A stretch of 64,000 nt of DNA from Methanolobus psychrophilus R15. GTDB lineage: Archaea > Halobacteriota > Methanosarcinia > Methanosarcinales > Methanosarcinaceae. The stretch covers positions 434,001 to 498,000 of the forward strand of contig CP003083.1 in assembly GCA_000306725.1 (NCBI GenBank), written 5' to 3'. The position numbers and the translations under genes are program-made. Below, piece after piece: positions 17,495 through 44,316 of this stretch (positions are counted from its first letter, which is position 1; the number at the start of each line of letters is the position of its first letter). The notes beneath the pieces are model-generated. The model was not told the origin of the DNA and ran no database searches. It saw only the letters and a list, made by a program, of their open reading frames with translations.

Positions 17495-17512
17495 TCCGAC
17501 CGTATGGTTTTT

Positions 17513-20269: not shown

Positions 20270-20308
20270 TGTCATATCATAATTTATTATTAAAAAAGGA
20301 GAAGAAAA

Positions 20309-20431
20309 ATGCTTGGAATCGACGATCCGCAAATATGGCTTGCTTATGTTCTTTGTTTTTTAAGTGCTATAGGTTGTATCATTTATGGTGCACTGAACTG
20401 GAATGAGGGCGAAGAAGAGGAGGCCTGCTGA
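20309..20431 (+). CDS. Symporter small accessory protein (40 aa), cassette 3
   Basis: ATG 20309 after AAAGGAGAAG; MLGIDDPQIWLAYVLCFLSA, then IGCIIYGALNWNEGEEEEAC. Same single helix, two Cys and acidic tail as the other two copies. TGATG overlap with the symporter. Confidence 0.8.
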   Translation: MLGIDDPQIWLAYVLCFLSAIGCIIYGALNWNEGEEEEAC

Positions 20432-27824: not shown

Positions 27825-27859
27825 GTATAAGTTCCATCTCAAACTGCTTGCAGAGACAT

Positions 27860-28591
27860 TCAAATCAGCTTATCTGCAATTTCTTTTAATTGCAGGCAGT
27901 AGTCACAATCCGGCTCATCCTCCATCACAAGTTTGCGTGACCAGGCACGTGCCACCGAATTATCATAACTTATCGATCCCATGAGCCTGGTGCCAAGCTT
28001 TTTGCTGAAATCCTTTACTACTTCATCGATCTCCTTGCGCTTATCGTGGGGAGTCCTGTTAAAGAGCAGATATGCGCGGGTTCCCAGCTTATCCGCCATA
28101 CTGGAAAGAAGATAAGTCCCCCTTATATCCTGAACATCGATTGTCGAGATAATGGTTGCCCTGTCAGCAATATTCATTGCAAGCAGACTGGACCTGTTAA
28201 TGCCCGGACTGCAGTCGAAAAGGAAATGATCGATAGAAAGGTCCTTATGGATGCTGTTTATAAGCCCAAGCATTTTATCCCTGGCTTCCCGGGGAGTATC
28301 GAACATTGTTATAATATCTTCCTCACATGCCTTTGAAGGGACTATGTAAAGCTCGTTATTGCCATACCTGTAGACCACATCAGATGGCCTGCATGTCCCC
28401 TGCAGGAAATCAACAAGTGTCAGTTCATACTTGATATTAAACAATGAGTGGATACCGGGGCCATTAACATCCGTGTCGATAATGCAAATCCTTTTCCCGC
28501 GCATCGATAGCAGAACAGCGAGATTTCCAACAAACGTTGTTTTACCCGTGCCCCCCTTATATGAATGAAAACTTAGCAGCACTTGTCTCAC
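27860..28591 (-). CDS. ParA/MinD-family ATPase
   Basis: 243 residues with the deviant Walker A SYKGGTGKTTFVGNLA (signature Lys), the Walker A' IIDTDVNGPGIHSLF and the Walker B FLFDCSPGIN. A C-terminal CDYC pair is unusual. Such ATPases position cargo or form gradients on membranes or DNA. It overlaps its upstream wHTH gene by 4 bases (ATGA), so the ATPase and the DNA-binding protein are made together, like a partition or position pair. No centromere-like repeats are seen nearby. Confidence 0.85.
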   Translation of the reverse strand: MRQVLLSFHSYKGGTGKTTFVGNLAVLLSMRGKRICIIDTDVNGPGIHSLFNIKYELTLVDFLQGTCRPSDVVYRYGNNELYIVPSKACEEDIITMFDTPREARDKMLGLINSIHKDLSIDHFLFDCSPGINRSSLLAMNIADRATIISTIDVQDIRGTYLLSSMADKLGTRAYLLFNRTPHDKRKEIDEVVKDFSKKLGTRLMGSISYDNSVARAWSRKLVMEDEPDCDYCLQLKEIADKLI

Positions 28592-28995
28592 CCCAGCAAC
28601 CGGTCAAGCTTGTCTTCCACTTCCTCGACTGCAGACCAGTGGCCACCCTTGTCAGGCTCATCTTTTTTCTTCATCGAGTAGTATATCTTTTTGCCTTTCC
28701 TTTCCCTCACAAGCCATCCACCCCTGTAGAGCTCATTAAGGTATTTGTTCTCAATGGACCTGTGCCTGCCTGTAATAACACTGACCTCATCCGCAGTGCA
28801 CGACTTAAGATCGGAGACAGCAAAAAGGGATTTCCGGATAGAATCGGGAACTGTGAGAAAAACAGCCATTTTGTCATCGATCTGTGGAGGGGAGCATGTT
28901 TCAATTTTCGATAGGCGCAACTCAAGATACTGTAAACGCCTATTTATATTATTCAGGTACTCCAGAATATCGGGGTCATTGTGCAGGTCAGACAT
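28588..28995 (-). CDS. Winged-helix DNA-binding protein paired with the ParA-like ATPase
   Basis: About 135 residues. A coiled stretch LEYLNNINRRLQYLELRLSK comes first, then a winged helix: DSIRKSLFAVSDLKSCTADEV, SVITGRHRSIENKYLNELYR, GGWLVRERKGKKIYYSMKK. ATG 28995 is preferred; GTG 29007 is also in frame. Stop overlaps the ATPase start. A role as a DNA-binding adaptor or regulator for the ATPase is inferred from the operon. Confidence 0.72.
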   Translation of the reverse strand: MSDLHNDPDILEYLNNINRRLQYLELRLSKIETCSPPQIDDKMAVFLTVPDSIRKSLFAVSDLKSCTADEVSVITGRHRSIENKYLNELYRGGWLVRERKGKKIYYSMKKKDEPDKGGHWSAVEEVEDKLDRLLG

Positions 28996-29178
28996 AATTA
29001 TCAGCACGTGTTATTTTCATACTACTATGTGCGAAATTTAATAGATGTGATAATATATAAGTTTGACCAATTGGATATAAGAGAAACATCTGACTATTTG
29101 AAAAGAAGAAAAATTACATGTGCTCAGCAGACTTCATTAGATATATAGATAAATGCAGCATGAAAAACGGAGAAAAAA

Positions 29179-29874
29179 ATGAGAAGCTCATCTTTCATAA
29201 AAGGACTTGATGATATCCTGTGCGGAGGATTTATCTCACCTTCAACTGTCCTGATTGCAGGGACCGCCGGCTCAGGTAAGACCAATCTTTGCCTGCAGTC
29301 ATTGTTCCATGCTTCCGTGAGAGGGGAGAAATGTGCCTACATATCTCTGCTTTCAGGTTCAAGGAACAAGGTGATCTCGACCACCCGCCAGCTTGGTTTT
29401 TTCGATGACCAGGTGCTTACTTCCAGAATGCTTGCCATCCACTCCATCGGCACAGATATCATAGCTAAAGGAGATTTCTCCATATTCGAACATATTACTG
29501 ATACCGTCCTGAGCACTTCCCCGACCAGGGTTGTCATTGACACCATAACGATCCTGGAAGCGATAGGCAGCACTTTTGAGGAGAGGGAGTTCAGGGGCTG
29601 TGAACTAAGAGCCTTCACGCAAAACCTGTTCATGGAATTTGAGGAGAGAGGCATATTGCTCATGGTTACCGGAGAGATAAAACCGGAGTCCATTGCTGTC
29701 AATCACTGGTCATACATGGCAGACACCATCCTGTCCCTGGAAAGAAAGACAACTGAGAGCGGACTTGAAAGGCACCTGGAAGTGATCAAGATGCGTGGAA
29801 GCGACTTTATTCCAGGAAAGCATCCCTTCGTTATCGGTCCGGAAGGGATTGATATGCTGAAAAAAGGAACCTGA
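29179..29874 (+). CDS. KaiC/RAD55-like RecA-superfamily ATPase
   Basis: 231 residues, one RecA domain: FIKGLDDILCGGF, Walker A AGTAGSGKTNLCLQ, TRVVIDTITILEA as Walker B, and a C-terminal HLEVIKMRGSDFIPGKHPFVIG typical of KaiC-type proteins. Such archaeal ATPases are often signalling modules. It faces two minus-strand groups and has its own promoter region at 29040-29150 (TATA-like GATAATATATAAG). Partner unknown. Confidence 0.82.
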   Translation: MRSSSFIKGLDDILCGGFISPSTVLIAGTAGSGKTNLCLQSLFHASVRGEKCAYISLLSGSRNKVISTTRQLGFFDDQVLTSRMLAIHSIGTDIIAKGDFSIFEHITDTVLSTSPTRVVIDTITILEAIGSTFEEREFRGCELRAFTQNLFMEFEERGILLMVTGEIKPESIAVNHWSYMADTILSLERKTTESGLERHLEVIKMRGSDFIPGKHPFVIGPEGIDMLKKGT

Positions 29875-29883: not shown

Positions 29884-30645
29884 TCAGGTGCAGAGGCTTT
29901 CCAGAAGCGTGTCCATCTCCGTTGAGAGCTTCCTGTCCAGCAGGTGCCTGGAGTTGGCCAGGTAATGCTCAAATGCAAGTATGTCATCCTTTGGGATATG
30001 TTTACCCATATTTGACTTGAACTTGAGGGCCTCATATGAATCGACAAGTTCAGGCATGACCATCCGTGGATAATTTCCTGCAAGCTGCCTGAGAAGGAGC
30101 CTGGCTTTAGGATACGGAAGCAGTAGGCAATCCCTGTAGCGTGGCAATACAATGCAATCAGTGCCACATATAGGATCAAACATCAGCCTTTCCTTAAAGA
30201 AGCGGGCAGCATCAGGATTGTCAGGCTTTGTTATCACATTTGATCTCAGGTTTTTAGCAGCGATCGCAAATAGCAATCTACCAATACCCATATTCCTGCA
30301 GGATGGATGAACCTCGATACTGCGGAGCAGGTGAACAGAGTGGCGGACAACATTCTTCTTTCCCCTGTGTATCTTTTCGATATTATCTGATACCTTTTCA
30401 AACCTGGCAAATCCAAGAAGCCGATTGCAGGCATCAATGGAAACGAACAGTGCATGTCCTGAAGAAACAGAGGTCTTCATCAGGAAATCATAAGGCATTC
30501 CGAAGTTGTTGTGAAAGTAATTGAAACCAGGTGTACCTGAATGGCCTACCTCGATCCTGAGACTGTCAACTACATCCTCCGATTCAAGCAGGCAGTAAGA
30601 GACATTGCCGGCCTTATGCAACAAGCACATACCATTAACAGACAT
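29884..30645 (-). CDS. GNAT-family N-acetyltransferase (copy 1)
   Basis: 253 residues. GNAT core at about 70-160: LFVSIDACNRLLGFARFEKV, LRSIEVHPSCRNMGIGRLLF (acetyl-CoA loop R-x-x-G-I-G) and VITKPDNPDAARFFKERLMF. It is a paralogue of the protein at 36138-37040: both share a GM(P/S)..-type N-terminal helix, the LR(S/A)IE block and (V/H)I(V/T)TKP.N.DA..FF. Last 80 residues are helical and specific to this copy. It is the last gene of the long minus-strand signalling run that also holds two deacetylases, which suggests protein acetylation; the target is unknown. Confidence 0.75.
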   Translation of the reverse strand: MSVNGMCLLHKAGNVSYCLLESEDVVDSLRIEVGHSGTPGFNYFHNNFGMPYDFLMKTSVSSGHALFVSIDACNRLLGFARFEKVSDNIEKIHRGKKNVVRHSVHLLRSIEVHPSCRNMGIGRLLFAIAAKNLRSNVITKPDNPDAARFFKERLMFDPICGTDCIVLPRYRDCLLLPYPKARLLLRQLAGNYPRMVMPELVDSYEALKFKSNMGKHIPKDDILAFEHYLANSRHLLDRKLSTEMDTLLESLCT

Positions 30646-30663
30646 TTTCCCATACCGCTCTTT

Positions 30664-32220
30664 TCACACGTTAGCCAGTTCCCTCAAAGTAAAATAGGTA
30701 TACCTGCCCTTCTTGAAAGATATCAGCAACTGTACCTGCTCCATATGACCCACAACAGATGAGAGTTCATCAAAACCTAAGCTGCACCTCAAGCTCATCT
30801 GATTCTCCAGTTGTTTCAGGGTCACAGGCCCGGACTCCCTGAGCTCTTCAAGGATCATCTGCTCAATATGTCCGGGGGAAAACTCAGCTATAGATGTAAT
30901 AGACGTATTGCAGGAACTCTCCTTTACATACCTGAGATTTCCAAGTTCCTCACGCACCTGTAAAATATCAGAATGGATCCCCTGAATCTTCTCTGTATCC
31001 TGTATTGACTGCAGCATCTGCTGTTGCATCTGTGCAAGATTACTGTTGACTTCATCCCGGAAAGAAGCAACAGCTTCAGAGATAACGAGCATTTCATCCC
31101 GGTTTGCTTTTAAGGCCATGCTCTCTTCAAATGCTGTTATGTCGGGTTGAGGAGCTTGTAAAGAACTCACAGCAGAAGTGTTATCCAAAGTGCGGATCTC
31201 CTCAAGTGTTTTGTTTAGTTTCCGGAGTGCCTTTGTATGAAGGTTTACCGCTTTTGTAATGTTCTTCATCTGGGCCCTGATATCTTCAATACCCGCTGCA
31301 TGTAACCTTGTATCTTCGAGCTGGTTGTTCTGGAGCTCGGCCATGAATTGCATGTTCTCTGTCAGGTTTGTAAGTTCTTCAGTGATAACCGGCAACCTGG
31401 AAGAGATCTTTTCAATTGACCTGTCATGGGAAACAACTTTTTGTACTGTGTATTCCCTGCTTCCCGTTTCGACAAAGGACCTGAAGTCCTGTGAACTGTA
31501 ATTGGGAACTGCCTGGGATAAGATCTTGAAAAGCTCAATATAGGTTGCATGTATCTGTTTTATTGAGACGAGTTTTGAGGATACTGCATCTGAGAGTCCC
31601 CTGACAAGGAATACTCCATTCTCAAACCTGAAAAAATCCACCCCTGCACTGAACTGGCGGACCTTATCCCTGGTATCCTCGACAATCTCTGATGATTCCC
31701 GGTCACCAAATATATTCAGCATGGCAGCATAGAGATCGTTCAGGGTTTTGGCATAGGTTATCTCAAGCACATCAGGCGGGACCTTTGCAGCGTCAAGTGT
31801 TTCAGCGCTGAGTGAATCCTCTGACTTTACGATCCTTCTGAGACGTTTTGAGAAGATATCGAAATCCCTTCTTAACTGCCTGAACTCACCCTGAGGTGAC
31901 ATTTTGGATAACTCGGTATGGATATAAGAGATAGAAGTGTCACGCTCACTGAATCCCTCGCTAACCTTCACCTGGAGCTCCTCAAATTTCCTCTCAAAGA
32001 GTGCCAGCTTCTCTTCCATTTCCCGATATCGGGAATCATCCACAAGTGCAGCTTGCGTGCCTGATAAATTATCACTTTCTTCATAGTTTTCTGCAGAGCA
32101 CTCCTTATCGCTAACCTTAACCTTAAGAAGCCCTGAAGATCCATTATCCGCACAGCTAGAAACCGGGGATGGCATCTGACTATCTTCTGCTTGTGCCTCA
32201 GCACATATCTCACTACCCAT
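30664..32220 (-). CDS. Long coiled-coil protein with C-terminal winged helix
   Basis: 518 residues. Residues 1-60 are acidic and low complexity. Residues 65-130 and about 280-430 are coiled coil (REMEEKLALFERKFEELQVK; EELTNLTENMQFMAELQNNQ). A globular part lies at about 150-270 (TYAKTLNDLYAAMLNIFGDRE; GVDFFRFENGVFLVRGLSDA). The end, HIEQMILEELRESGPVTLKQ through LISFKKGRYTYFTLREL, looks like a winged helix. No known family. It lies between the GNAT and roadblock genes with 15-18 base gaps, so it belongs to their operon; a scaffold that links signalling proteins to DNA is one possibility. Confidence 0.65.
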   Translation of the reverse strand: MGSEICAEAQAEDSQMPSPVSSCADNGSSGLLKVKVSDKECSAENYEESDNLSGTQAALVDDSRYREMEEKLALFERKFEELQVKVSEGFSERDTSISYIHTELSKMSPQGEFRQLRRDFDIFSKRLRRIVKSEDSLSAETLDAAKVPPDVLEITYAKTLNDLYAAMLNIFGDRESSEIVEDTRDKVRQFSAGVDFFRFENGVFLVRGLSDAVSSKLVSIKQIHATYIELFKILSQAVPNYSSQDFRSFVETGSREYTVQKVVSHDRSIEKISSRLPVITEELTNLTENMQFMAELQNNQLEDTRLHAAGIEDIRAQMKNITKAVNLHTKALRKLNKTLEEIRTLDNTSAVSSLQAPQPDITAFEESMALKANRDEMLVISEAVASFRDEVNSNLAQMQQQMLQSIQDTEKIQGIHSDILQVREELGNLRYVKESSCNTSITSIAEFSPGHIEQMILEELRESGPVTLKQLENQMSLRCSLGFDELSSVVGHMEQVQLLISFKKGRYTYFTLRELANV

Positions 32221-32235
32221 TCTGGCACCACCGCT

Positions 32236-33015
32236 TCATACAAACGACTCCAGTTTGCGCTTTATGTCAGGTATCCACTCTGCTTCACACATATCAGCAA
32301 CATAATCCCCATGCAAAGGACGTATCTGGTCCCTGATGATCATCTCGACAAGCAAAGGCCAGAGGTCCTCTGTCATCCACTTGGGAGAAGAAGCGATCTC
32401 ATTGAAAGCCATTGCAAGTGCAGGCTCCACCTCGCCCCTGCCCATCACACCAGTGATCTTTTTCTTGATGTCAGCAAGTATCTCCATGTTCTTTTTATAC
32501 TCCGATGACTGGGTATACATCTCATTGAACACTATCTTGGCAAGGATACGCAGCTCTGAAGCTACCTCCTCCGAATAGTTCGACAGCTGGTCAGCTGTCA
32601 TTGGGCGCTGCTCAAAGATGTGCTGTATGACCTCTCTTGCGACCTGTATCTTATGCATGTCATCGGAAAGGTCGGCCTTGCCCGCGAAAAGAGATATCAG
32701 GAGTGCACCTCTTCCTACGGAGGAGAAGATGACAGTTCCAAAGTCATATTCTATCACCGACTGCTTAAGCCCCATGGCAAGCTGCTGGCTTACATGCAGC
32801 AGGTTGTGACTTATGAGATTTGTCAGTTCAAATATCTTGGGACCTATACTGTCAGGGATATACGAAGCGTATATCCTGCCATCTGCACCTGCAAACAGCA
32901 GTACATCGGCATCACTGGATTCATAGGTCCTTTTTAATTGTGAGACCAGGGCAAACTTAAGAAGAGATACATCTTCCAGGTCATCTTTTGTCTTTTTAAC
33001 CGCCAAGTTCACCAC
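32236..33015 (-). CDS. Roadblock/LC7-like domain protein
   Basis: 259 residues. Residues 15-130 have the roadblock-like pattern: KRTYESSDADVLLFAGADGR, IYASYIPDSIGPKIFELTNL, IEYDFGTVIFSSVGRGALLI. The C-terminal half is helical (EEVASELRILAKIVFNEMYT; EIASSPKWMTEDLWPLLVEM). Roadblock proteins usually regulate small GTPases or act in motility complexes; no GTPase is adjacent, but a KaiC-like ATPase is 12 bases upstream in the same operon. Assignment rests on pattern only. Confidence 0.6.
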   Translation of the reverse strand: MVNLAVKKTKDDLEDVSLLKFALVSQLKRTYESSDADVLLFAGADGRIYASYIPDSIGPKIFELTNLISHNLLHVSQQLAMGLKQSVIEYDFGTVIFSSVGRGALLISLFAGKADLSDDMHKIQVAREVIQHIFEQRPMTADQLSNYSEEVASELRILAKIVFNEMYTQSSEYKKNMEILADIKKKITGVMGRGEVEPALAMAFNEIASSPKWMTEDLWPLLVEMIIRDQIRPLHGDYVADMCEAEWIPDIKRKLESFV

Positions 33016-33027
33016 TTCTGTACTTAA

Positions 33028-34083
33028 TTACTGTAGCATCTCTTCCAGATCACGAAGATTATCTATCTCTATCAGACCTTCTTCTTCAGGCTCCGCGACA
33101 ACGGATTTAAGGGAAGCTTTTGTTGAAAGCTCCTTCAGGTCAAGCTGTATGTCAGAAGGCATGCTCTCCTCTTTCCTCCGGGCGATCTCGTCTTTGGTAA
33201 GCGCATCAGTAAGCCCCTGGGATTCGAAGAATATCTGCAGCGTTTCCTTGGGTGAGAAGGGATATGACCAGTTCTCCTTAACGTAGGCAAGACGCTCAAG
33301 TACGGTTTCGTTGGCTCCAAGGTCTGCAGCTGTCCTTATGGCCTTGTTGAACAGATCATCATACTTACGCATGTCTTCGGCTGACACCAGCGGAGTAGTA
33401 CGCACTACAACTCCTATACCCCGCACGAAAATATAGGGGTAGACTTCCTCACCATGCCTTGTGGCTCGCATTTTTATGATCTCCAAAGCCCTGTTGAAAG
33501 CACCGCCTATAGGGCGATAGGTAAGGTGGACTGCACCGTCGGACATATATATGGGTATAAGCACATCCTCGCCTATGGTCTCACCCGGAGCTGCATGCTC
33601 CTCAGTTGTTATCAGGACCGGACCCAGCTGCTTTAGAGTATAGAACAGCTTGGTTATCACCTCACGCTGCTCCTGCTTGTCCTGGATAGCCCATGTAAGA
33701 GGCGTCAGGGGATCTATAACAACGCGTGTCTTCACAGAGAAGTTCTTGTTCATCTCCACCAGTGCAGGCAGCTGCTCATCCACAAGCTTTACGAAATCCT
33801 TGCCCTTTGAATGGAAGAAGAATAACTCTTTTTCATAATACTTATCCAGATTGAAACCAAGCATCTTGGCTTCACGCATTATCTGCTCAGGTGGCTCTTC
33901 CATGCTGATATAAAGGCCATTCTCACCATGTTCCAGCCCGTAATTGAGATACTGCATGGCAAAAGTGGATTTACCCGTACCACTTGAGCCGACAACAAGC
34001 AAGGTAGTATTATCCCTGACACCGCCTTCAATGACCCTGTCAAGACCTGCTATCCCGGTCGGGATTCGTCTCTCTCTGCTCAT
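33028..34083 (-). CDS. KaiC-like RecA ATPase (351 aa)
   Basis: N-terminal KaiC domain: RRIPTGIAGLDRVIEGGVRD, Walker A VGSSGTGKSTFAMQYL, catalytic Glu pair in ISMEEPPEQIMREAKMLG, Walker B RVVIDPLTPL, and LEIIKMRATRHGEEVYPY. The last 110 residues are a specific helical tail ending in an acidic EEMLQ. It overlaps the LSm-like gene upstream by 4 bases (ATGA). It is not the archaellum ATPase-like ArlH by length or tail. Likely an ATP-driven switch that signals through the roadblock and V4R neighbours (inference). Confidence 0.85.
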   Translation of the reverse strand: MSRERRIPTGIAGLDRVIEGGVRDNTTLLVVGSSGTGKSTFAMQYLNYGLEHGENGLYISMEEPPEQIMREAKMLGFNLDKYYEKELFFFHSKGKDFVKLVDEQLPALVEMNKNFSVKTRVVIDPLTPLTWAIQDKQEQREVITKLFYTLKQLGPVLITTEEHAAPGETIGEDVLIPIYMSDGAVHLTYRPIGGAFNRALEIIKMRATRHGEEVYPYIFVRGIGVVVRTTPLVSAEDMRKYDDLFNKAIRTAADLGANETVLERLAYVKENWSYPFSPKETLQIFFESQGLTDALTKDEIARRKEESMPSDIQLDLKELSTKASLKSVVAEPEEEGLIEIDNLRDLEEMLQ

Positions 34084-34415
34084 TCACACACCTCAAAGTC
34101 AATCGATTCAGATTCAATTGCCTTCAATTCTCCCATTTCCACGGAGAGGATCAATGACTCATTACTATCAAAGGGAAAACTCTTCTCGACATATATAGCC
34201 TCGATCGAGGAGCCCATCACCAGCATATGATCACTTATGTTCACCCAGCCCGCATCGCTTTTCTTAACAACCTTCTTCAGCAACACGTTACTGGTTTTTG
34301 CATCCATACCTGCACATTCTCCTCTGTAATGTGATGATGAAGTAATAACACGAACCATTTTACCGATGAAACCTGAAAGATAATCATCCATAGAATCCAT
34401 TTTTGAACCAGACAT
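34080..34415 (-). CDS. LSm-like small protein
   Basis: 111 residues. FIGKMVRVITSSSHYRGECA GMDAKTSNVLLKKV resembles the Sm1 motif (YRG-x-C-x-G-x-D and N-V-L-L), and HMLVMGSSIEAIYVEK resembles Sm2, where canonical proteins have IRG-x-x-I. A C-terminal strand follows. If correct it is an RNA-binding or ring-forming LSm-fold protein inside a signalling operon, which is unusual. It is translationally coupled to the KaiC-like gene. The similarity is by pattern and needs a profile search. Confidence 0.5.
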   Translation of the reverse strand: MSGSKMDSMDDYLSGFIGKMVRVITSSSHYRGECAGMDAKTSNVLLKKVVKKSDAGWVNISDHMLVMGSSIEAIYVEKSFPFDSNESLILSVEMGELKAIESESIDFEVCE

Positions 34416-34428
34416 CGTATGACCTCTT

Positions 34429-35346
34429 CTAACCTTTTTTCATCTTAGCCATAAGTTCGGCAAAACTGTCTGCTTTTTTAGCTTCTTCCGGGATCTCTAC
34501 GCTCCCTTGAGGTGCTGCCTGTCGGACAAGCTGTGGTGGTACGGGAGCACTGGCCTGTACCTTTTGTGTCATTGCACCAAAGGCCGATCCGAACGTATTA
34601 TGAGCTGCAGCTATCGATGCAAGCTCTTCCTGCACTTTCCATGGAGGATCAAACACTTTCTCCGGTTTTTTCATGTTAGCTGCAAACTGCATGTAAGCAG
34701 TGCCGATCTCAGAAAGCCGTCCACTGTCCAGTAGTTTATATATTGTAAGGGCCCTGACCCTCTCCACAAGTTCATTTTCGTCTACCTGCGGCCTGATACC
34801 TGAAAGTATCATCTTGTCATTTTCATCAAGCAGGACCTGATAGGCTGATATTGGCTGCAGGGCTATCTTGAACTTACAGACCTGATTACCGTTCTTGATG
34901 CATTCGATCTCCTCAACCGAGCATTCCAGTTCAAGCTCCTCGGTAAAGAACCTGTAAAGAGCATCAGTGGTTGCAACACACACTTTCTGGTTATTCAGGG
35001 CAGGGTAACAGTTACATACAGGATTGTTCGGAACTGCAAAAACGTAATTCATCGGAGCATATGATATCAGCTGCATCGAACCCAGGCCGGATTCAGCAAA
35101 GAGCTTTACCTGGAAATTATATAGTGCAGTTGACTTAATAGCATCGATCGTGAAAGACTTCAGGAACTTCCGTGTCTCCTTCCAGGGAACTTTTGCCAGG
35201 GGGAATCTCTCGCTGATATTCTGCTGTATCTTGAGCAGCGCACCAAAAGCACCCATAGATTGTGCAAAGCTACCTTCGTTCATCGAGGGCATTCCACCGG
35301 GCGAAGCGGTCATGAAGGGGGGCAGGCCGGGAGGAACATCACTCAT
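34429..35346 (-). CDS. V4R-like sensory domain protein
   Basis: 305 residues. The first 40 are Pro/Gly/Met-rich and flexible. Residues 50-165 resemble a 4-vinyl-reductase (V4R) ligand-binding domain, with VCNCYPALNNQKVCVATTDA, LELECSVEEIECIKNGNQVC and KFKIAL: the Glu-Cys and Cys-x-F spacing is typical. A helical C-terminal part ends in a Pro-rich linker and KMKKG. V4R domains bind small hydrophobic ligands or metals. With CheF-like and KaiC-like neighbours it may be the input of the signalling system; the ligand is unknown. Confidence 0.6.
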   Translation of the reverse strand: MSDVPPGLPPFMTASPGGMPSMNEGSFAQSMGAFGALLKIQQNISERFPLAKVPWKETRKFLKSFTIDAIKSTALYNFQVKLFAESGLGSMQLISYAPMNYVFAVPNNPVCNCYPALNNQKVCVATTDALYRFFTEELELECSVEEIECIKNGNQVCKFKIALQPISAYQVLLDENDKMILSGIRPQVDENELVERVRALTIYKLLDSGRLSEIGTAYMQFAANMKKPEKVFDPPWKVQEELASIAAAHNTFGSAFGAMTQKVQASAPVPPQLVRQAAPQGSVEIPEEAKKADSFAELMAKMKKG

Positions 35347-35387
35347 AACGCCACCTCCGCGGCAGGAAAGTCCTAGAACGGCACATC

Positions 35388-35975
35388 TTACATCATCTCC
35401 ATAATCTGTTTCTTGCCTTCTTCTGTCAGGGTGCCGGAGTTGTCACACAACTTCTGGTCCCTGAGGCTCTTGAAACTGTCAGACAGGGTCTGGCTGTCAG
35501 CTCCGGTGAAGAATGCAAGTTTTTGCAGGTCGTTTACACCCGTGTACAACATATACAATAACTTTTTATCGATATCAGAAAGAGACTGCTTCTTTGTAGG
35601 AGTGCCGCATATTGGCTGAAGATAAGTCTTCAAAGTATTGATAACAGCCTCGTTACCCGCCAGCAAGGCAACTGCCGGCGAGGTTGCACCCTGGATGACA
35701 CTGGATGCCTGTACATAATCTATTATGAGTACGTGGGATGTACCTATGGACCTTTGAGCCTTCATTTTGATAGAGTCAGTGACTTCCCTGCCAATCATAG
35801 TGATATTCTGGAGAGGTATCGTTGACCAACCCCCGCCTTCAGAGAACCACAGATTAAGGTTGGTCAGGTAAAGGACACCTTTTTCCCAGTTGTCTGAGTA
35901 CAGGGAGTTGCCCATCATCACAGCCTTGAAAATATATGTTAGATCTACTTTTGCTATACCCTGCTCTTGAGCCAT
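35388..35975 (-). CDS. CheF-like taxis protein
   Basis: 195 residues. Residues 10-115 look like the PH-like CheF domain: WEKGVLYLTNLNLWFSEGGG, IPLQNITMIGREV, HVLIIDYVQASS. Residues 130-195 are a winged helix: DIDKKLLYMLYTGVNDLQKL, LTEEGKKQI. CheF couples the Che system to the archaellum switch in archaea. This copy is shorter than haloarchaeal CheF, and no cheY or cheA is in the window. It is the first gene of the downstream signalling run, with an AT-rich promoter at 35990-36070. Close archaellin genes support a motility role. Confidence 0.6.
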   Translation of the reverse strand: MAQEQGIAKVDLTYIFKAVMMGNSLYSDNWEKGVLYLTNLNLWFSEGGGWSTIPLQNITMIGREVTDSIKMKAQRSIGTSHVLIIDYVQASSVIQGATSPAVALLAGNEAVINTLKTYLQPICGTPTKKQSLSDIDKKLLYMLYTGVNDLQKLAFFTGADSQTLSDSFKSLRDQKLCDNSGTLTEEGKKQIMEMM

Positions 35976-36137
35976 GTGTCTACACCTGATATTTAATCGT
36001 TTGTAGTAATATATTAAGATAATTATAATTAAACTATGTATGCACTACGCCTATTAATAATCTTCTATTTAGAAAATAATATAAAATTGGCTTGTGGCAA
36101 AAAGACCTGATGAGGAATAGTATAAAGGATTTTTAGA

Positions 36138-37040
36138 TCAGGCGCTCTTTCTCAACGGAAGGAAATAACGCTCTTTTTTGCAGGAAGCGCATACAAAAGC
36201 AGTTCCGGGCTTTTTACCAACCTGGAGGAACTTACCAGCCATATTCTCACCACACTCACACGACGAGAGCATTTTTTGGTTCCCGATGAATCCTTCCCTT
36301 ACATTCTCTGTTATGGATGAAAGAGGATCGCTCAGTGGAGCTTCCTCGACAGCGTCGCTTTTTTCAGTTTCTGCACTGCCTTTAATTCCATTTTGGGTTT
36401 GGTCAGTACCCTTTTGCCTGTTTTCGACATAACTGCTTGCAGAAAGAGGTATTCTGGACTCTTTATGGGCAGAAGGTTTTTCCGTGGGGAACAATTTCAT
36501 CATACAGGTCGTCGTCCTGTCATGAACCATGCTCATATTATCAAGGGGCAGGCTAAGCTTAGTACCTTCATCCAGCACCAAATAACCCGGATAATCCGCC
36601 AGGTCGACAGGGTAGTTCTTTAGAGGGAGACTGAAATTCAATGAACTGAAGAACTTTTTAGCATCCATGTTCACGGGTTTTGTGACGATGTGACCTGGAA
36701 GTATCCTGGAGATAAGGATGAAAAGGGCGCGCCCAAGGCCCTTGCGGGCGAGGAGAGGAGATATCTCGATCGCACGGAGTACAAATACGGGCCTCCCGTC
36801 ACCTGAAGGCTTGCTCCAGCTCTCATTCATTGACCAGCCTACGATATGATTATCCTGCACTGCCACAATAAGATACACTGTCGGCCTTTTAAGCCAGCTT
36901 TTGAAGTTTGCCATATAGTCCGACATGCCCAGATGCTTTTTGAAGTACGTGAAGTCCCCTATTTCCAACTTATCAAGCTCAAAGGGATGTTCAAGGACAT
37001 AGAAACGTATTCCATCAGCGTTTTTTGCAATTTCGATCAT
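36138..37040 (-). CDS. GNAT-family N-acetyltransferase with C-terminal zinc ribbon (copy 2)
   Basis: 300 residues. GNAT core at 25-160: VYLIVAVQDNHIVGWSMNES, LRAIEISPLLARKGLGRALF, HIVTKPVNMDAKKFFSSLNF. A Ser/Glu-rich linker (about 185-250) follows, then a Cys-rich tail CECGENM...CASCKK that could bind zinc. Paralogue of the gene at 29884-30645. It lies 10 bases downstream of the first HDAC-family gene, so acetylase and deacetylase are cotranscribed. The zinc ribbon may give target specificity. Confidence 0.78.
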   Translation of the reverse strand: MIEIAKNADGIRFYVLEHPFELDKLEIGDFTYFKKHLGMSDYMANFKSWLKRPTVYLIVAVQDNHIVGWSMNESWSKPSGDGRPVFVLRAIEISPLLARKGLGRALFILISRILPGHIVTKPVNMDAKKFFSSLNFSLPLKNYPVDLADYPGYLVLDEGTKLSLPLDNMSMVHDRTTTCMMKLFPTEKPSAHKESRIPLSASSYVENRQKGTDQTQNGIKGSAETEKSDAVEEAPLSDPLSSITENVREGFIGNQKMLSSCECGENMAGKFLQVGKKPGTAFVCASCKKERYFLPLRKSA

Positions 37041-37050
37041 ATAGCCACAC

Positions 37051-38103
37051 TCACCTTACCTGACAGGAGACAGGTTTATCCAGGTCCCAGTAGGGACTCA
37101 GTATTAACTTCAATCGTGACAGTTTCTCCTGAAATTCCTTTCTCGTGTTCACATGCCGGGATGCAAGCAGATCTATCTGATCGATCTCATCTTTAATGGT
37201 CCTTCTACCCATAAGCCCTTCAAGGACAACTGCTGCCAGCAAACCGATGTCCTCATGATAACCCCCCTCCAGCAGACAAACAACTTTCCACCGACTGGCA
37301 AGAAAATCGATAATGCTATAATAGCCATCGATAGTTAGGTCCAACTGTGACAGGGACTCTTTATGATAAGCATCAAATCCACATTCTAAAATGACAATTT
37401 CAGGGTCAAACTTTATCATTACTTTTTCTATGATATCCTCAAAAAGTATTCCATACTCTTTGTTCCCGGACCTGAGAGGCATTTCCATGTTAATAGAAAG
37501 ACCAAGCGCAGGACGGACACCTATGTCTTTTATGAAGCCTGTATGCGGATAAACTTTTGAAGGGTCCTGATGGACGGATATGCATAGCACATCCGGGTCA
37601 GCTGAAAATATGCCGTATGTGCCATCGGAAGCATGAGCGTCTATATTCAGTATTGCCACCTTTTTGATCCTGAAGATATCCCTCAGGAAATGAACCAGTA
37701 TAGCCGAATTGTTAAAAACACAGAATCCGCCGGAAGTGCTTTTGCCGGCATGATGCCCCGGAGGACGCACTAAGGCAAAAGAATGATCACATGCACCATT
37801 TGCCACTACTTCGCCTGCACGTAGCACAGCGCCTATTGACTGGAGAAGGACATCAAAGGAACCTTCACACAGGTAAGTGTCCTTTCCAAGATTCTTCCGG
37901 GATTGCTGGATACTTGCTGTTACACTGGCAACGTATTCTTCCGTATGCACCCTCAGTATATCTTCGATCGTGGCAGGCTCAGATCGGAACAAATAGCACC
38001 TCCCGTCATCCAGGTACCTTTTCTCAGACAGGTAGCTAAGTATCCGGTCCAGCCGAGTGGGATTCTCAGGGCTGGGATATCCGTTAAGCAGAGGATCATG
38101 CAT
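37051..38103 (-). CDS. HDAC-family deacetylase (arginase/deacetylase fold), short form
   Basis: 350 residues. Catalytic His pair at 117-118 (RPPGHHAG), zinc ligands Asp155 and His157 (NIDAHASDGT) and Asp244 (ECGFDAYH), and the transition-state Tyr282 (LEGGYH). All are present, so it should be active. This fold removes acetyl or related acyl groups from lysines or polyamines. It sits between the GNAT gene and a second, longer HDAC-family gene. In Archaea the known targets include Alba; here the operon suggests a signalling or motility protein (inference). Confidence 0.88.
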   Translation of the reverse strand: MHDPLLNGYPSPENPTRLDRILSYLSEKRYLDDGRCYLFRSEPATIEDILRVHTEEYVASVTASIQQSRKNLGKDTYLCEGSFDVLLQSIGAVLRAGEVVANGACDHSFALVRPPGHHAGKSTSGGFCVFNNSAILVHFLRDIFRIKKVAILNIDAHASDGTYGIFSADPDVLCISVHQDPSKVYPHTGFIKDIGVRPALGLSINMEMPLRSGNKEYGILFEDIIEKVMIKFDPEIVILECGFDAYHKESLSQLDLTIDGYYSIIDFLASRWKVVCLLEGGYHEDIGLLAAVVLEGLMGRRTIKDEIDQIDLLASRHVNTRKEFQEKLSRLKLILSPYWDLDKPVSCQVR

Positions 38104-38138
38104 ATGGTGATTCTCATTGCAAGTAAGGCCGACGCGAA

Positions 38139-40031
38139 CTATACTAACACCTCATGAAGCATCGGAATTACTTTTTTCACTTCTGACACCTTGCTCATGG
38201 TCTCTGCGAATATTTGCTTCTGCTGATTCTGCTTGAAACTTGAGACTTCAAGTGCATCGTGCACAGGATTAGGCTTTCCTTCAAGAGCGTTTAACACACT
38301 GTGGCATAGCTGCCCGTTAAAATCATGATATCCCCCTTCCATCAGGAGCACAAAATTACCATTATGCACAGACCTTACTTTGGAGGTCATTTCATGGAAA
38401 CCTTCTGATGTCAGGCTCAACCCGACGTTCTTCTCCTTATAGTACGCATCAAATCCGCAAGAACATATTATAAATCCCGGCGAGAAGCTTTCTATAAGAG
38501 GTACCACGACTTCGTCAAAGGCAAACATATATTCCGCATCCCCTGAACCCGGCGGCATCTCAACGTTGACAGAATACCCTTTGCCAGCCTGGACTCCGGC
38601 TTCCTTTGTGAAACCTCGCCGGGGATAGAATCCATGAGGATCACGGTGCAGGGATACTGTAAGCACTGTCGGGTCGTCGTAGAATATCTCCATGGTGCCA
38701 TCCCCTGCATGTGCATCCCAGTCAAGGATCATTATTTTCTCAATACCCTTTACTTCTTGCAGGTACCGGGCAAGGACAGCTGCATTGTTGAAAAGACAGA
38801 AACCACCATACCTGTTCCTGCCTGCATGATGACCGGGGGGCCTTGTCATGACAAAAGAGAAGGAGTACTTGCCACCGGCCACCAGATCACCGGCTTTTAT
38901 TGCAGCTCCTGCTGCCAGCTTTGCTATATCATAGGTCTGGGGAGTGATATAGGTGCTATCACCAAGGAAACCGCCACCGTTTAAGGCATAGTTGCTTACA
39001 AAGCGTATGTAGGACTCATCATGGACCCGCAGGAGATCCTTCTCTGTCGCCATCGAGAAATCATCTACCAGATCATATTGGCTGCTTTGGAATATGTTGC
39101 TTTTTTCAAGATACCACATTGCTTTTGTTATCCGGTCAGGAACTTCAAATGTCTTGATAGATAGCACAGAAGGATTATGTGCAGTGTGCTTCCTATTATA
39201 AAGAAAAGCTATCCTGTCTGAAGAAATTGTTTTCACTGCTGCATCAGGCACAGTGACAGGAACATCCCCTTTAGCATCTTTCTTTTTATTAAAGAGGTTT
39301 TTCTGTTTTCCTTCCACCACAGATTTTACATTTAAATGGGACTCCTGCACTGTTGCCACATTCGTCGAACGGAAGAGCTGACCGGCCGGCAGGATGGCCT
39401 TATCCACTGAGGCAGGCAAAGAGCTCACACTGGCATTAACAATTTCTACCGGACTATCACCAATATCTACGATTTTCCCGGAAGGCACGGGGCCAACTGA
39501 CTTTTTGACAGGGTTTTCCACAATAGGGTCGAGAACTGTTGCAACTACCTGCTTTGGGACAGCCTTCAATGCTTCAGATACGATCTTTGAATAGATCTGA
39601 TCATCTTCATCCCTGACAGATACATCCTCTTTCTCAATAGCAACTTCAACTGATTGGAATTCAACTTCCCTGAAAGCATCAGAAAAAAGAGCGTTTTCCG
39701 CAATGACGGCAGGCATCCCTTCAGTTGCTGCTGCATCGTCAGGAATATTCCCAGTGATCTTTGGAGAAGACTGCTTTACTTCCTCCTGAGTACCGGAGGG
39801 ATTGTCGGGAGTATTATCAGAGGTATTATCAGGAGTATTATGAGGAGTATCACGGGCGATATCTTCTTTTATCTCTTCCAGCAGCTTTGCAACTTCATGA
39901 GAGGCAGCAGAGAGACTGGTGTCTTGAAGCTGATCGTTAAAGTATGAAGACATTACGTCATTGAGCATTTTCCTGACATCGATATGCTCATTATCCGGCT
40001 TACCGGTCTTTTCTTTTTGAGTTGCAGACAC
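38139..40031 (-). CDS. HDAC-family deacetylase with long disordered N-terminal extension
   Basis: 630 residues. Residues 1-275 are low complexity and acidic, with a short tandem TPDNTSDNTPDNP stretch near 65-75. The catalytic domain covers about 280-600: RPPGHHAGRNRYGGFCLFNN, LDWDAHAGDGTMEIF, CSCGFDAYYKE and LMEGGYH, so all metal and catalytic residues are kept. About 350 residues match the short form upstream of GNAT copy 2, from which it is separated by 35 bases. The extension may tether it to a partner or membrane complex. A two-enzyme arrangement suggests different substrates. Confidence 0.87.
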   Translation of the reverse strand: MSATQKEKTGKPDNEHIDVRKMLNDVMSSYFNDQLQDTSLSAASHEVAKLLEEIKEDIARDTPHNTPDNTSDNTPDNPSGTQEEVKQSSPKITGNIPDDAAATEGMPAVIAENALFSDAFREVEFQSVEVAIEKEDVSVRDEDDQIYSKIVSEALKAVPKQVVATVLDPIVENPVKKSVGPVPSGKIVDIGDSPVEIVNASVSSLPASVDKAILPAGQLFRSTNVATVQESHLNVKSVVEGKQKNLFNKKKDAKGDVPVTVPDAAVKTISSDRIAFLYNRKHTAHNPSVLSIKTFEVPDRITKAMWYLEKSNIFQSSQYDLVDDFSMATEKDLLRVHDESYIRFVSNYALNGGGFLGDSTYITPQTYDIAKLAAGAAIKAGDLVAGGKYSFSFVMTRPPGHHAGRNRYGGFCLFNNAAVLARYLQEVKGIEKIMILDWDAHAGDGTMEIFYDDPTVLTVSLHRDPHGFYPRRGFTKEAGVQAGKGYSVNVEMPPGSGDAEYMFAFDEVVVPLIESFSPGFIICSCGFDAYYKEKNVGLSLTSEGFHEMTSKVRSVHNGNFVLLMEGGYHDFNGQLCHSVLNALEGKPNPVHDALEVSSFKQNQQKQIFAETMSKVSEVKKVIPMLHEVLV

Positions 40032-40052
40032 ATCATCACCTAAAAAGCAAGG

Positions 40053-41000
40053 TTATTGGACCTGGATCCATACAGGATCAAGCACACCCGTGTACCTGTT
40101 ACCCATATATTCAAAGACCACGGTAGGTTCTTCCACAGCCACCCAGCCAGCAATTTTTGGCTTCATGACCCATGTCCTCTTTGCTGTCTCACCCGGAGCT
40201 ATATTATCAAAGAAAAGGTTTGCATTCTCAATATCAACGGTGTTCCCAAACTTCGCCTTGATTGCAAGATTCACATATGGTTGCTGTGCAAAGTTCTTCA
40301 CCCATACATCAACGGTCGTCTTATTGCCAACAGTGACCTGCTGGGCAGGCACCAGTCTGATATACTGGGCAAGGGTCTCTTTGGGCAGTACTGTAGCATT
40401 GGATGTATCCACGTTCCGGTTCTGGCCTTTCATCTTATTCTTGTCTTTCTTATTCAGGTAAACACCTGAACCCAGCATCATGACCGATGCTACGAATATT
40501 ATTGCGGAATTATCAGCTATATCGTCAATAATCGTTCTTTGAACTTCTATATTCAGTGCTGTCGCTTCGCCCATTTCAAGAGGCAGGAAAGATACGCGGG
40601 TGATTATCCAGCCGACCTCGGAATTCTGAAGTTTGAAATAGATAGGAATGGAAAATGAATTTTTTTCTTTTCCTGAAAGGTCCAGGCTCGCAACAAGACA
40701 CTCAACTTCAACAAGAGCAAGGGAATCGGATATCTCCATAGAAGTTATGTTAATCTCCTTGATACCTCCTGCCTGAATGTCCTTGTTCTTGAATATCATC
40801 ATGATGCTTGCAGGTGCAAGGAAATCCTTGCCGCTATACATGGCAAAAGCTGAACCAGGGTCACCTTCATTGACAGCATTCAAAAAACCCACAACAGTAG
40901 ATTCGACTGACTCCTCCGGGGATTGGCCAATGCAACCGCTGTTGAAAATAGCGGATGCAAGGACAAGGATCAAAATGATATTAGATGACCTGTGTTTCAT
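40053..41000 (-). CDS. Lipoprotein-like membrane protein with Ig-like C-terminal domain
   Basis: 315 residues. Signal peptide with lipobox-like NSGC at about 20-23. Residues 30-150 recall the small NTF2-like DUF4878 fold (STVVGFLNAVNEGDPGSAFA). One membrane helix follows near 165-180 (NSAIIFVASVMMLGSGVYL), and the C-terminal 110 residues look like an Ig-like CARDB domain (QVTVGNKTTVDVWVKNFAQQ; NIAPGETAKRTWVMKPKIAG). Function unknown; surface or envelope sensor is possible. It lies 21 bases upstream of the long HDAC gene on the same strand. Confidence 0.65.
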   Translation of the reverse strand: MKHRSSNIILILVLASAIFNSGCIGQSPEESVESTVVGFLNAVNEGDPGSAFAMYSGKDFLAPASIMMIFKNKDIQAGGIKEINITSMEISDSLALVEVECLVASLDLSGKEKNSFSIPIYFKLQNSEVGWIITRVSFLPLEMGEATALNIEVQRTIIDDIADNSAIIFVASVMMLGSGVYLNKKDKNKMKGQNRNVDTSNATVLPKETLAQYIRLVPAQQVTVGNKTTVDVWVKNFAQQPYVNLAIKAKFGNTVDIENANLFFDNIAPGETAKRTWVMKPKIAGWVAVEEPTVVFEYMGNRYTGVLDPVWIQVQ

Positions 41001-41051
41001 GTGAGCACCAGATAGATTGATAAAAGATTATAGGAGTATTTATATTGGATA

Positions 41052-41783
41052 TTATTTATTTTTATTCTTTTTAATTATATATAACGCTATTGATGCGAGT
41101 ATGATCTCAATCACTACAAGGAGAGGAAGAAAGAAGCTGTTCTTATAGAATGGTTCTTTCTGAAAAGTTACATGAGCTGCATATTCGAACGCAGGATTGT
41201 CCTCTATCACAAAGGACCGTAGACCACTGATACCCTCCAGCACAACACGGCCATCATACACTGACTGGGATGCTTCATCAAGTCCGTCATAAGAGATCAC
41301 TTCCATGCCTTTGGGAAGAACGAATTTCATGTTGTCTATAAGAGGGTGACCGAGTACCCATATACTATGCTCTCCTGCAGAGAGAACAGAGCTCATACTG
41401 TACTGTATTGTTGTTGTCACGCTCAATGTGGAATTATCAACCGGGCCCTGTGCATTTTCGAACCGGATATCGATAGAATCTATTGCCAGTTGAAGGGCAC
41501 CATCATCGACCAGAATATATTCAAGGAACTGTGCCCCGCCGTTTGACATGTAGCGTTCCCGGAAATACTCGATCTCTAAGGCGTCAAGGATGCCATCATC
41601 ATCTGTGTCGAGATCGTCCCTGAAAGCCAGGGCATCCGCATCGGTGTATATCTCATTCACCGTGAATGTAATAGAACTCTCAAGCAGTTCAATGTGGTTT
41701 GTAAACGAAGCTCCTGCTGAAGCATTTGGAACCAGACAGCAGAAAAATATGATTAGGAGTAAACAGGTAGTGTTTTTGCTCAT
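41052..41783 (-). CDS. Secreted/membrane protein with EF-hand-like calcium loop
   Basis: 243 residues. Signal peptide (LLLIIFFCCLVPNASA), then one calcium loop DLDTDDDGILDALEIE at about 56-72, a beta-rich body, and a C-terminal membrane helix (FLPLLVVIEIILASIALYII) with a KKNKNK tail. Cell-surface facing. It lies between the archaellin pair and the lipoprotein gene, so it may be cotranscribed with archaellins. A single EF-hand loop recalls dockerins, but a second repeat is missing. Confidence 0.65.
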   Translation of the reverse strand: MSKNTTCLLLIIFFCCLVPNASAGASFTNHIELLESSITFTVNEIYTDADALAFRDDLDTDDDGILDALEIEYFRERYMSNGGAQFLEYILVDDGALQLAIDSIDIRFENAQGPVDNSTLSVTTTIQYSMSSVLSAGEHSIWVLGHPLIDNMKFVLPKGMEVISYDGLDEASQSVYDGRVVLEGISGLRSFVIEDNPAFEYAAHVTFQKEPFYKNSFFLPLLVVIEIILASIALYIIKKNKNK

Positions 41784-41816: not shown

Positions 41817-42602
41817 TCACGGATAGAGCTGGACTGATTCCCTTGTACCATAAGACGACGGAGTTAAAAAGGTAGCCATCGTCGTTGCACCCGATTCAGG
41901 CGTCAGTACTATCGTAACTGTTGTTCGCGGCCCAATGTCAAGATTAGAATCCCTCTGACCGCCGGCAGTGGACACATCGCCAATGGTCGTATACGAAAGA
42001 TCACTACCTGAGACCGTGGACACATATATAGTTGCAAGGTCTCCGGTGTTCATGATAGGATTTCCCTGAGTGAACGACGTATCATCGTCCCGGATCTTCT
42101 GCGCTGTAAAGAAATACCTTGCATTGTGACCAGGTGTTGCCTGCGTCTCCGTAAGCAGCTTTCCCAGATTCACAGATGCAGTAGCTGAGGCGGAGAAATC
42201 TGCCATCGCATTACCATGAGTCTTCTCATTGTTCGCATAGAGCAGATCGTTGGTGTTAGACCCATCTGAGATCGTAACTATCAGTTGGTTAAGGTCCACC
42301 GGGGCACTCCCCACATTCAGGCCTACCCGTATCCGCAGGAGAGAGACATTGCCCGCCATGTCAGTAGCATTGTTCTTTGCACGGACGCCTTCGATATTCT
42401 TAACTACCAGATTAGAGGAAACCTCCTGTGTTGCCTGCTTGCCGGTAGACTGGGCCTGCTGCTGGAGAATGCCGGATGTCTGTATAAGCACAGAAGCAGC
42501 GACCGCAGCAATAAGCACCATGGCAATGAAGATAATAAGTGTGCCAATACCAACCTGAGCTTGATTATCAGCGAATATTCCGGTCTTATTTTTTGCTTTC
42601 AT
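41817..42602 (-). CDS. flaB: Archaellin (long form, locus A)
   Basis: About 261 residues. The hydrophobic N-terminus [20 protein letters not shown] is that of archaellins (class III signal peptide, filament core helix). The start at 42602 gives the best ribosome-site spacing; ATG 42611 also is in frame. The residues before the usual cleavage point are Asp-Asn-Gln-Ala, without the basic residue found in the other three archaellins here (Thr-Arg-Ala), so processing by the prepilin peptidase may differ. The C-terminus ESGATTMATFLTPSSYGTRE matches the others. Second gene of the archaellin pair, 49 bases after the short one. Confidence 0.88.
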   Translation of the reverse strand: MKAKNKTGIFADNQAQVGIGTLIIFIAMVLIAAVAASVLIQTSGILQQQAQSTGKQATQEVSSNLVVKNIEGVRAKNNATDMAGNVSLLRIRVGLNVGSAPVDLNQLIVTISDGSNTNDLLYANNEKTHGNAMADFSASATASVNLGKLLTETQATPGHNARYFFTAQKIRDDDTSFTQGNPIMNTGDLATIYVSTVSGSDLSYTTIGDVSTAGGQRDSNLDIGPRTTVTIVLTPESGATTMATFLTPSSYGTRESVQLYP

Positions 42603-42660
42603 GAAAACCATCTCCGGAAAATTGAGTGATGTGTAGATTGACTACACATCATGAGCTGCA

Positions 42661-43512: not shown

Positions 43513-44316
43513 ATGAGTGCCGGACTCCTGCTGAATGCAAGTATCTGTTTTGCGATAACTATATCTTCATTGGCCTTTGCATGGGTACTTGCCCGTGGAG
43601 GAACGGAGCATAACGCTAAAAGTAAACCCGCGCTCTGGTCCCTTATAGCTTTATGGTTACTTGTAGGCTTTACATACCTGCCTACGACATTGAGGATGAT
43701 TTCCGCATACATTGGCAGCCAGCAGCTTGATCTGTATATGTACTACATTGCTGCATTACCATTCTCTTTCGTTGCGGTGCCACTGGTATTTTTCATACTA
43801 TATGTGATCATAGGGGATCAGAAGATCAGCAGCTATGTATCACTCCTTTTTGTGCTGTTTGGTGCCGCCTACCTTGCACTGCTCTATTCAAGCGGTGTCA
43901 TCGGACCCACGATCACACCCCTGACCTCCATGTTCACAATCAATAGCGATATTGCAATAAACATCTACCTTATAGGCCTCTTTGTGATACCCACTGCAAT
44001 GATAATAGGACTGCTGTTCCTAATTTTCCTCCAGAGGATGCCAAAGAGACTGCGCTACAGGACAGCTCTGCCCCTTGTGGCCATTTCTTTTGTGTTTGAC
44101 TTCATGCTCACAGACATGATCACCCCTGACGATGCAATGCAACTTGCAGCAAGGATATTCGTACTTATTGGTACAGTACTGGCATTCCTTGCCTACTTCC
44201 CTCCCATGAACCTGCAGGAAAAACTGGGAATCCAGAAATATGAGTATAACCTGTACAAAAGAAAAGATGAAATAGACTTCGATGAAGATGACGAGGAGTC
44301 TGATATCAATGTTTGA
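43513..44316 (+). CDS. 7-TM membrane protein, divergent from archaellins (locus A)
   Basis: 267 residues, seven hydrophobic segments at about 8-28, 42-64, 76-99, 107-127, 146-170, 182-198 and 213-230, then an acidic cytoplasmic tail (DEDDEESDINV). No lysine in the last helix, so not a rhodopsin. Paralogue of 46825-47625. It shares an intergenic promoter region with the archaellins and overlaps the small wHTH gene by 8 bases. A membrane receptor or regulator linked to the archaellum is possible; no catalytic motif seen. Confidence 0.7.
   Translation: MSAGLLLNASICFAITISSLAFAWVLARGGTEHNAKSKPALWSLIALWLLVGFTYLPTTLRMISAYIGSQQLDLYMYYIAALPFSFVAVPLVFFILYVIIGDQKISSYVSLLFVLFGAAYLALLYSSGVIGPTITPLTSMFTINSDIAINIYLIGLFVIPTAMIIGLLFLIFLQRMPKRLRYRTALPLVAISFVFDFMLTDMITPDDAMQLAARIFVLIGTVLAFLAYFPPMNLQEKLGIQKYEYNLYKRKDEIDFDEDDEESDINV

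Follow-up and report, generated by a model that had tools for sequence, protein, structure and literature searches.

How might a chemotaxis system that has no CheF act on an archaellum? CheF (DUF439, PF04283) is the archaeal chemotaxis adaptor that leads from phosphorylated CheY (CheY-P) to ArlCDE (Schlesner 2009; Altegoer 2022). The che2-type regions of Methanosarcina lack it, and how they control the motor "remains to be elucidated" (2009, PMC2666748). The question is raised again by a gene island of Methanolobus psychrophilus R15, whose genome is one contig of 3,072,769 bases. The island lies at positions 29884-41783 of the 64,000-nucleotide stretch analysed here (CP003083.1, positions 434,001 to 498,000; "the window"). 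It follows an archaellin gene and encodes a short CheF homologue together with KaiC-family, roadblock, V4R and LSm-like proteins, two HDAC-family deacetylases and two GNAT acetyltransferases.

We propose that the island is a module for coupling and regulation between a CheF-less "che2"-type phosphorelay and the archaellum of one motor type (type A, see below), with a probability of roughly 0.55. The presence of the short CheF and the tie of the island to CheF-less chemotaxis and to a single motor type suggest that taxis coupling is the core function, to which acetylation is an added layer.

Gene order and inheritance of the island

The island keeps its gene order in relatives: archaellin, EF-hand protein, lipoprotein, HDAC1, (HDAC2), GNAT1, short CheF, V4R protein, LSm-like protein, KaiC, roadblock protein, coiled-coil protein and (GNAT2). 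This order was followed in 17 relatives from five genera of the Methanosarcinaceae (Methanolobus, Methanomethylovorans, Methanosalsum, Methanohalobium and one unnamed genus), as far as the contigs reach; the exception is the split island of Methanosalsum natronophilum (G020). An archaellin heads the island wherever the contig is long enough, except in the rearranged G020, and in nearly all carriers the short CheF gene lies in the neighbourhood of archaellins. A conserved unit of 12-13 genes, in which the motility, KaiC/roadblock/V4R and acetylation genes are co-inherited, is thus supported. A preliminary description of the window had proposed such a unit and had raised the scattering of its genes among relatives; no scattering was found, and synteny of the block extends over five genera. 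In the window the features are as follows.

41817..42611, minus strand: archaellin (ArlB3), the first gene upstream of the island (Pfam Arch_flagellin, 1.6e-31)
41052..41783, minus strand: secreted membrane-anchored protein, predicted from its sequence; it has a hydrophobic anchor at the C-terminus and a single EF-hand-like loop, DTDDDGILDALEIE
40053..41000, minus strand: lipoprotein, predicted from its sequence, with the lipobox NSGC
38139..40031, minus strand: HDAC1, a class IIb-like zinc deacetylase (Pfam, 286 bits; invariant catalytic residues)
37051..38103, minus strand: HDAC2, a second HDAC-family deacetylase with intact catalytic residues, dispensable
36138..37040, minus strand: GNAT1, an acetyltransferase with a conserved zinc-ribbon-like C-terminal tail, CxC...CxxC (Pfam PF00583, at the cut-off)
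36052..36069, minus strand: promoter-like element, AATAGAAGATTATTAATA, upstream of the short CheF gene and kept in relatives
35388..35975, minus strand: short CheF, with one PH-like domain and a winged-helix C-terminal domain
34429..35346, minus strand: V4R-domain protein with the conserved C-terminal motif SFAELxxKMKK (Pfam and alignment)
34080..34415, minus strand: LSm-like small protein (weak Sm-family matches among orthologues)
33028..34083, minus strand: KaiC-family ATPase with intact Walker motifs (Pfam, 1.8e-46)
32236..33015, minus strand: roadblock-fold protein with a C-terminal helical domain (profile match and fold search)
30664..32220, minus strand: coiled-coil protein with a winged-helix-like C-terminus, KKGRYxYY (sequence and synteny)
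29884..30645, minus strand: GNAT2, the paralogous acetyltransferase (Pfam, 8.4e-7)

All 12 open reading frames of the minus-strand run that had been reported at 29884-41783 are present. The tight packing reported for them also stands. The ATGA overlaps, given in the plural, are reduced to one of 4 bases between the LSm-like and KaiC genes. From GNAT2 to the archaellin the intergenic gaps are 18, 15, 12, -4, 13, 41, 162, 10, 35, 21, 51 and 33 bases, the clear break of 162 bases lying between GNAT1 and the short CheF gene. The promoter-like element lies about 95 bases before the start of the short CheF gene and is conserved at the corresponding place in relatives; it has a single exact match in the window, in which 0.05 matches are expected with 3 mismatches allowed. 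Because of the gap and this conserved, unique element, two transcription units are likely, one running from the archaellins to GNAT1 and the other from the short CheF gene to GNAT2. No promoter motif common to the archaellin genes and short CheF was found, the element being specific to the latter.

The less familiar members of the island are conserved as well. Orthologues of the EF-hand protein (36-43% identity) occupy the matching position, those of the lipoprotein (34-59% identity), for which a Pfam scan gave no family, are syntenic, and so are those of the coiled-coil/winged-helix protein, which have 481-1018 residues. In 11 relatives an additional gene of about 195 codons comes after GNAT2 or the coiled-coil gene (for example L170:17693-18277 and L034:11493-12080; about 50-68% identity). 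It is absent from its expected place beyond 29884 in the window, and its product matches no Pfam family above the cut-off.

In G020 the island is divided. On one contig the short CheF and LSm-like genes accompany the archaellins, the EF-hand protein, the lipoprotein, an ArlC/DE protein, CheW, CheY and CheA, and in the rest of the island HDAC1 and GNAT1 remain with the V4R, KaiC, roadblock and coiled-coil genes. In this arrangement the acetylation enzymes are linked to the KaiC core and no longer to the archaellins. In a second Methanosalsum genome (G006), an operon for a methyl-accepting chemotaxis protein, CheW, CheY, CheB, CheA, CheC and CheR begins downstream of the island, from which it is separated by about 3 kb containing a divergent gene. 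In one genome of the genus Methanolobus (G290; L170, 11988-14284) the short cheF gene is deleted, the V4R protein is truncated at its N-terminus and KaiC is apparently frameshifted near its start; this may be a natural case of loss or an assembly error.

The flanks of the island change outside Methanolobus and Methanomethylovorans, and ParA, a second KaiC and DUF2117 are common to those two genera only. In the window, genes for a ParA/MinD-like ATPase, a small winged-helix-like protein and a second KaiC-family ATPase, on the plus strand, lie at 27147-29874. This trio is conserved beside the island in both genera and is possibly a positioning system.

The short CheF and the type of chemotaxis system

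With Pfam alone the CheF-like protein scores 18 bits, which is under the PF04283 cut-off. A profile of 11 short-CheF orthologues was compared with a profile of five genuine CheFs from the che regions of relatives. The two align with an hhalign probability of 97 and an E value of 9e-11; the alignment has 162 columns and, on the CheF side, starts at residue 92 and continues almost to the C-terminus. In reciprocal searches the CheF profile recovers the short protein in most module genomes (7e-9 in the window genome), and the short-CheF profile recovers the CheFs of about 270 residues from other families at about 1e-10. Among PDB structures the best match of the short protein is to a CheF, and another CheF structure is also matched (7ovp and 7od9); both matches are weak (E values of 0.067 and 0.75). 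Judged by these profiles, the protein that had been called a CheF-like taxis protein is a real CheF homologue; the idea that the call was spurious, PF04283 being under its cut-off, is ruled out by the profile-profile comparison and the reciprocal searches. As a marker of presence or absence PF04283 proved too insensitive, missing genuine CheFs in G002, G016 and G037, and a purpose-built CheF profile was therefore used instead.

The short CheF has the winged-helix C-terminal domain of CheF, and of the two N-terminal PH domains it retains the second and lacks the first; it is also linked to archaellum and che genes. It differs from CheF in its length (195 against about 266 residues) and in being encoded outside the che operon, within the KaiC/roadblock/V4R/HDAC/GNAT block. 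The 11 aligned homologues terminate within about one residue of each other, just past the last helix, and both the CheF-type C-terminal domain and its final helix are predicted to be present. In CheF this C-terminal domain binds CheY-P by itself, and in the solved structure the C-terminal carboxylate of the final helix reaches the phosphosite of CheY (PMC9126983).

The distribution of the module was determined in 61 genomes of the family. The roadblock gene is present in 19 of them and GNAT1 in exactly the same 19; HDAC1 is found in all module genomes. Among about 250 sampled genomes outside the family, the roadblock family was found in none. A chance neighbourhood is ruled out by the synteny in five genera and by the identical phyletic patterns of the roadblock and GNAT1 genes.

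In all 19 module genomes ArlH is of a high-scoring kind ("type A"), and one or more CheW proteins are encoded. Full-length CheF was found in none of the 19, including the window genome, from whose own che operon it is absent. Seven genomes have it, and none of those seven has the module; the CheF-bearing che regions, where they were read, have the classic order with CheW, CheY, CheB, CheA, CheC, CheD and CheR. Genomes with a type-A ArlH and without a Che system (in g3, g4, g8 and g12) are also without the roadblock gene. On a CheA tree, seven module CheAs group at 100/100 with the Methanosarcina-like ones (g7 and g11, an inferred label), apart from the CheF-linked che1 CheAs. By their position on this tree, the sampled module CheAs are of the "che2" type, the CheF-less clade. 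Across the 61 genomes, module presence equals the combination of a type-A motor and che2, apart from two fragment cases.

On a tree of ArlH and ArlI the module genera are not monophyletic: g13, which has the module, groups at 97/97 with g3 and g8, which have neither the module nor che2. Provided that this gene tree reflects the species tree, the grouping suggests that the module and che2 were lost together on more than one occasion.

Both the motor operon of the window genome, with a fused ArlC/DE, and its che operon are located away from the island. In the che operon a PilM/FtsA-like protein of 705 residues is encoded between CheC and CheR, and two highly conserved proteins without a known family are encoded at its end (L078:2860-4183, L078:9373-11490).

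Partner proteins and acetylation enzymes

The KaiC-family ATPase (1.8e-46) and GNAT2 (8.4e-7) score above their Pfam cut-offs. In the KaiC orthologue alignment the stretches GSSGTGKST and RV.ID (Walker B) are invariant; a variable linker and a conserved acidic C-terminal motif of the type LIEIDxLxELEEL are also seen. The V4R domain (PF02830) was matched in 11 of 11 orthologues, with a best E value of 5e-8, the window copy scoring 30.6 bits against a cut-off of 31. The matches of the LSm-like orthologues are weak and recurrent (LSM PF01423, 1.5e-4; Gemin6, 5.3e-4; LSM14, 0.01).

None of 13 orthologues of the roadblock protein, which is 69-88% identical across genera, matches a Pfam roadblock family. 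Its family profile matches a solved roadblock structure in the PDB, 9jue, with an E value of 3.3e-4. Its model has an alpha-beta-beta-alpha-beta-beta-beta-alpha fold whose top matches are roadblock and MglB folds, at a mean predicted local distance difference test (pLDDT) score of only 62. A phage origin was considered and rejected, as no phage match was found for this protein. Structure prediction had been recommended for the roadblock, LSm, V4R and CheF assignments; each of the four gained support from the structural and domain comparisons, and the KaiC assignment holds as well.

The metal ligands and catalytic residues of the deacetylases (a His-His dyad, Asp/His/Asp zinc ligands and the catalytic Tyr) are invariant in all 14 aligned copies. 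HDAC1 and HDAC2, which the preliminary description had taken to be catalytically complete, are thus predicted to be so. Their nearest solved relatives are of the class IIb, HDAC6-like kind, and no other HDAC-family gene was found in the window genome. HDAC1 has a long, variable N-terminal extension with a short conserved motif, FDDVxYQSVEI, which suggests that it has protein partners. The island lacks HDAC2 in G014, G005, G006 and G020, and in G051 this gene is in three pieces. That the two GNATs are paralogous, as had also been noticed, is borne out by the match of the GNAT1 profile to GNAT2. GNAT2 is absent from the island in the Methanosalsum genomes G006 and G020.

The proposed coupling, its alternatives and the wider locus

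In the proposed coupling module, CheA would phosphorylate CheY, and the short CheF, in place of canonical CheF, would receive CheY-P on its winged-helix C-terminal domain. The short CheF may be part of a complex in the cytoplasm that also contains the KaiC ATPase and the roadblock, V4R, LSm-like and coiled-coil proteins. A second input to this complex would come from the nucleotide state of KaiC and from a ligand sensed by the V4R protein, and the complex would act on the motor at its ArlC/DE switch. Lysines on at least one member of the pathway would be acetylated by GNAT1, with GNAT2 assisting, and deacetylated by HDAC1, with HDAC2 assisting, and the pathway would be tuned in this way. The proposal is built on the order of the genes and their co-inheritance, on domain homology and intact active sites, and on the co-occurrence with che2 and the type-A motor. 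The least supported of its steps is an acetylation cycle acting on these very proteins; acetylation as a control step is suggested by co-inheritance and intact active sites only.

A number of observations weigh against this proposal. CheF-like domains also occur in proteins of 380-440 residues away from the module, including in relatives without it, so the domain by itself is not specific to taxis; in the window genome a paralogue of 419 residues with a CheF-like region is encoded near a response-regulator gene at about 886 kb (L130:6068-7327). The CheA type was assigned by tree for seven module genomes only, and the Methanosarcina-like genomes retain a che2 CheA without the module or a type-A motor. 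In G053 (73% complete) a short CheF and a V4R gene lie on a 5-kb contig and no CheW was found; the CheW of G029, a fragment of 49 residues, likewise blurs the pattern of module and che2. The LSm assignment is weak, several Pfam scores are under the curated cut-offs, and the two structure models (mean pLDDT of 55 and 62, from shallow alignments) are of low confidence. The acetyl-CoA loop of GNAT1 is only partly conserved.

The module might instead control the expression or assembly of archaellins and not the switching of the motor, the winged-helix, LSm-like and V4R proteins acting on transcription or mRNA and KaiC serving as a switch in the manner suggested for CirA. Archaellins adjoin the module in nearly all carriers, winged-helix-like domains are found in two island proteins, and KaiC-like proteins regulate motility genes or have been proposed to do so (PMC13286277). 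However, many genomes with a type-A ArlH lack the module, which indicates that filaments are produced independently of it; its presence tracks che2 and not the motor alone, and the helical C-terminal domain of CheF binds CheY-P in the solved structure. We consider this explanation unlikely. Much the same may be said of a reading in which the targets of the GNATs and HDACs are not the signalling proteins but, for example, archaellins, a glycan precursor or polyamines, and in which motility alone accounts for the position of these enzymes in the island. Enzymes acting on small molecules are known in both superfamilies, the PDB matches include acetylpolyamine amidohydrolases, and HDAC1 and GNAT1 stand between the archaellins and the KaiC genes in most genomes. 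Their nearest solved relatives, however, are HDAC6-type protein deacetylases, the extension and motif of HDAC1 suggest protein partners, and in G020 both enzymes stay with the V4R-KaiC-roadblock genes, parted from the archaellins, the lipoprotein and the EF-hand protein.

A loose motility island, in which unrelated genes are together by chance or recent common ancestry with no one shared function, appears very improbable. The restriction to five genera of a single family would fit it, as would the coming and going of HDAC2, GNAT2 and the extra gene of about 195 codons. Nevertheless, the core stays together despite the turnover of its flanks, the presence of the roadblock and GNAT1 genes is identical across the 61 genomes, and on the archaellum tree the losses fall in at least two lineages.

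The coupling module resembles several known systems in part. Like Methanosarcina che2, the module genomes have CheAs of one shared clade and a che operon without CheF; they differ in adding the island and a type-A archaellum, both of which the sampled Methanosarcina-like genomes lack. KaiC-like ATPases reportedly form signalling hubs in archaea (Makarova 2017). The island KaiC likewise lies amid candidate input and output domains (V4R, roadblock and winged helix), to which a CheF homologue, HDACs and GNATs are added. CirA of Haloferax volcanii is also a KaiC-like protein linked to archaellum-based motility, and the role discussed for it is in transcriptional regulation; the part of the article that was available names no CheF, HDAC or GNAT partner (PMC13286277). 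In E. coli CheY is deacetylated by CobB (PMC2883070). This is a bacterial precedent for acetylation in taxis, and the reversible tuning of chemotaxis output is the likeness proposed for the island. CobB is of the sirtuin type and acts on CheY, whereas the island has zinc HDACs and GNATs within a conserved motility block.

A full-text literature search of incomplete coverage, which did not include the 2017 work on KaiC hubs, found no description of a CheF homologue combined with a KaiC hub and HDAC and GNAT enzymes. CheF-based coupling and KaiC hubs were already known; what is new is that both are joined here with acetylation enzymes. To our knowledge, the island would be the first archaeal motility module to incorporate zinc HDACs and GNATs. 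As a short CheF occurs in a distinct island of relatives with a CheF-less system, the che2 question of 2009 is now directly testable in Methanolobus. The carbon metabolism of methanogens runs through acetyl-CoA, and acetylation in these organisms would be a plausible readout of metabolic state. Tentatively, taxis coupling might even be self-contained, CheY-P acting through the short CheF on a complex of the KaiC, roadblock and V4R proteins, and a dedicated cycle of lysine acetylation and deacetylation (GNAT1/2 and HDAC1/2) setting the state of that complex. If so, the archaellum would gain a second, metabolism-linked input through acetyl-CoA.

Further features are found elsewhere in the window. 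Genes for hydrophobic proteins without a Pfam family, one with a small partner gene, lie at 43513-44671 and 46825-47625, divergent from duplicated archaellin pairs; such genes also adjoin archaellins in Methanohalobium and Methanosalsum. Closely similar symporter-like genes are arranged in tandem at 15869-22017, where 17834-20058 looks frameshifted. A transposase gene of the insertion sequence type (DDE_Tnp_1) is located at 23153-24580, upstream of a DUF2117 gene.

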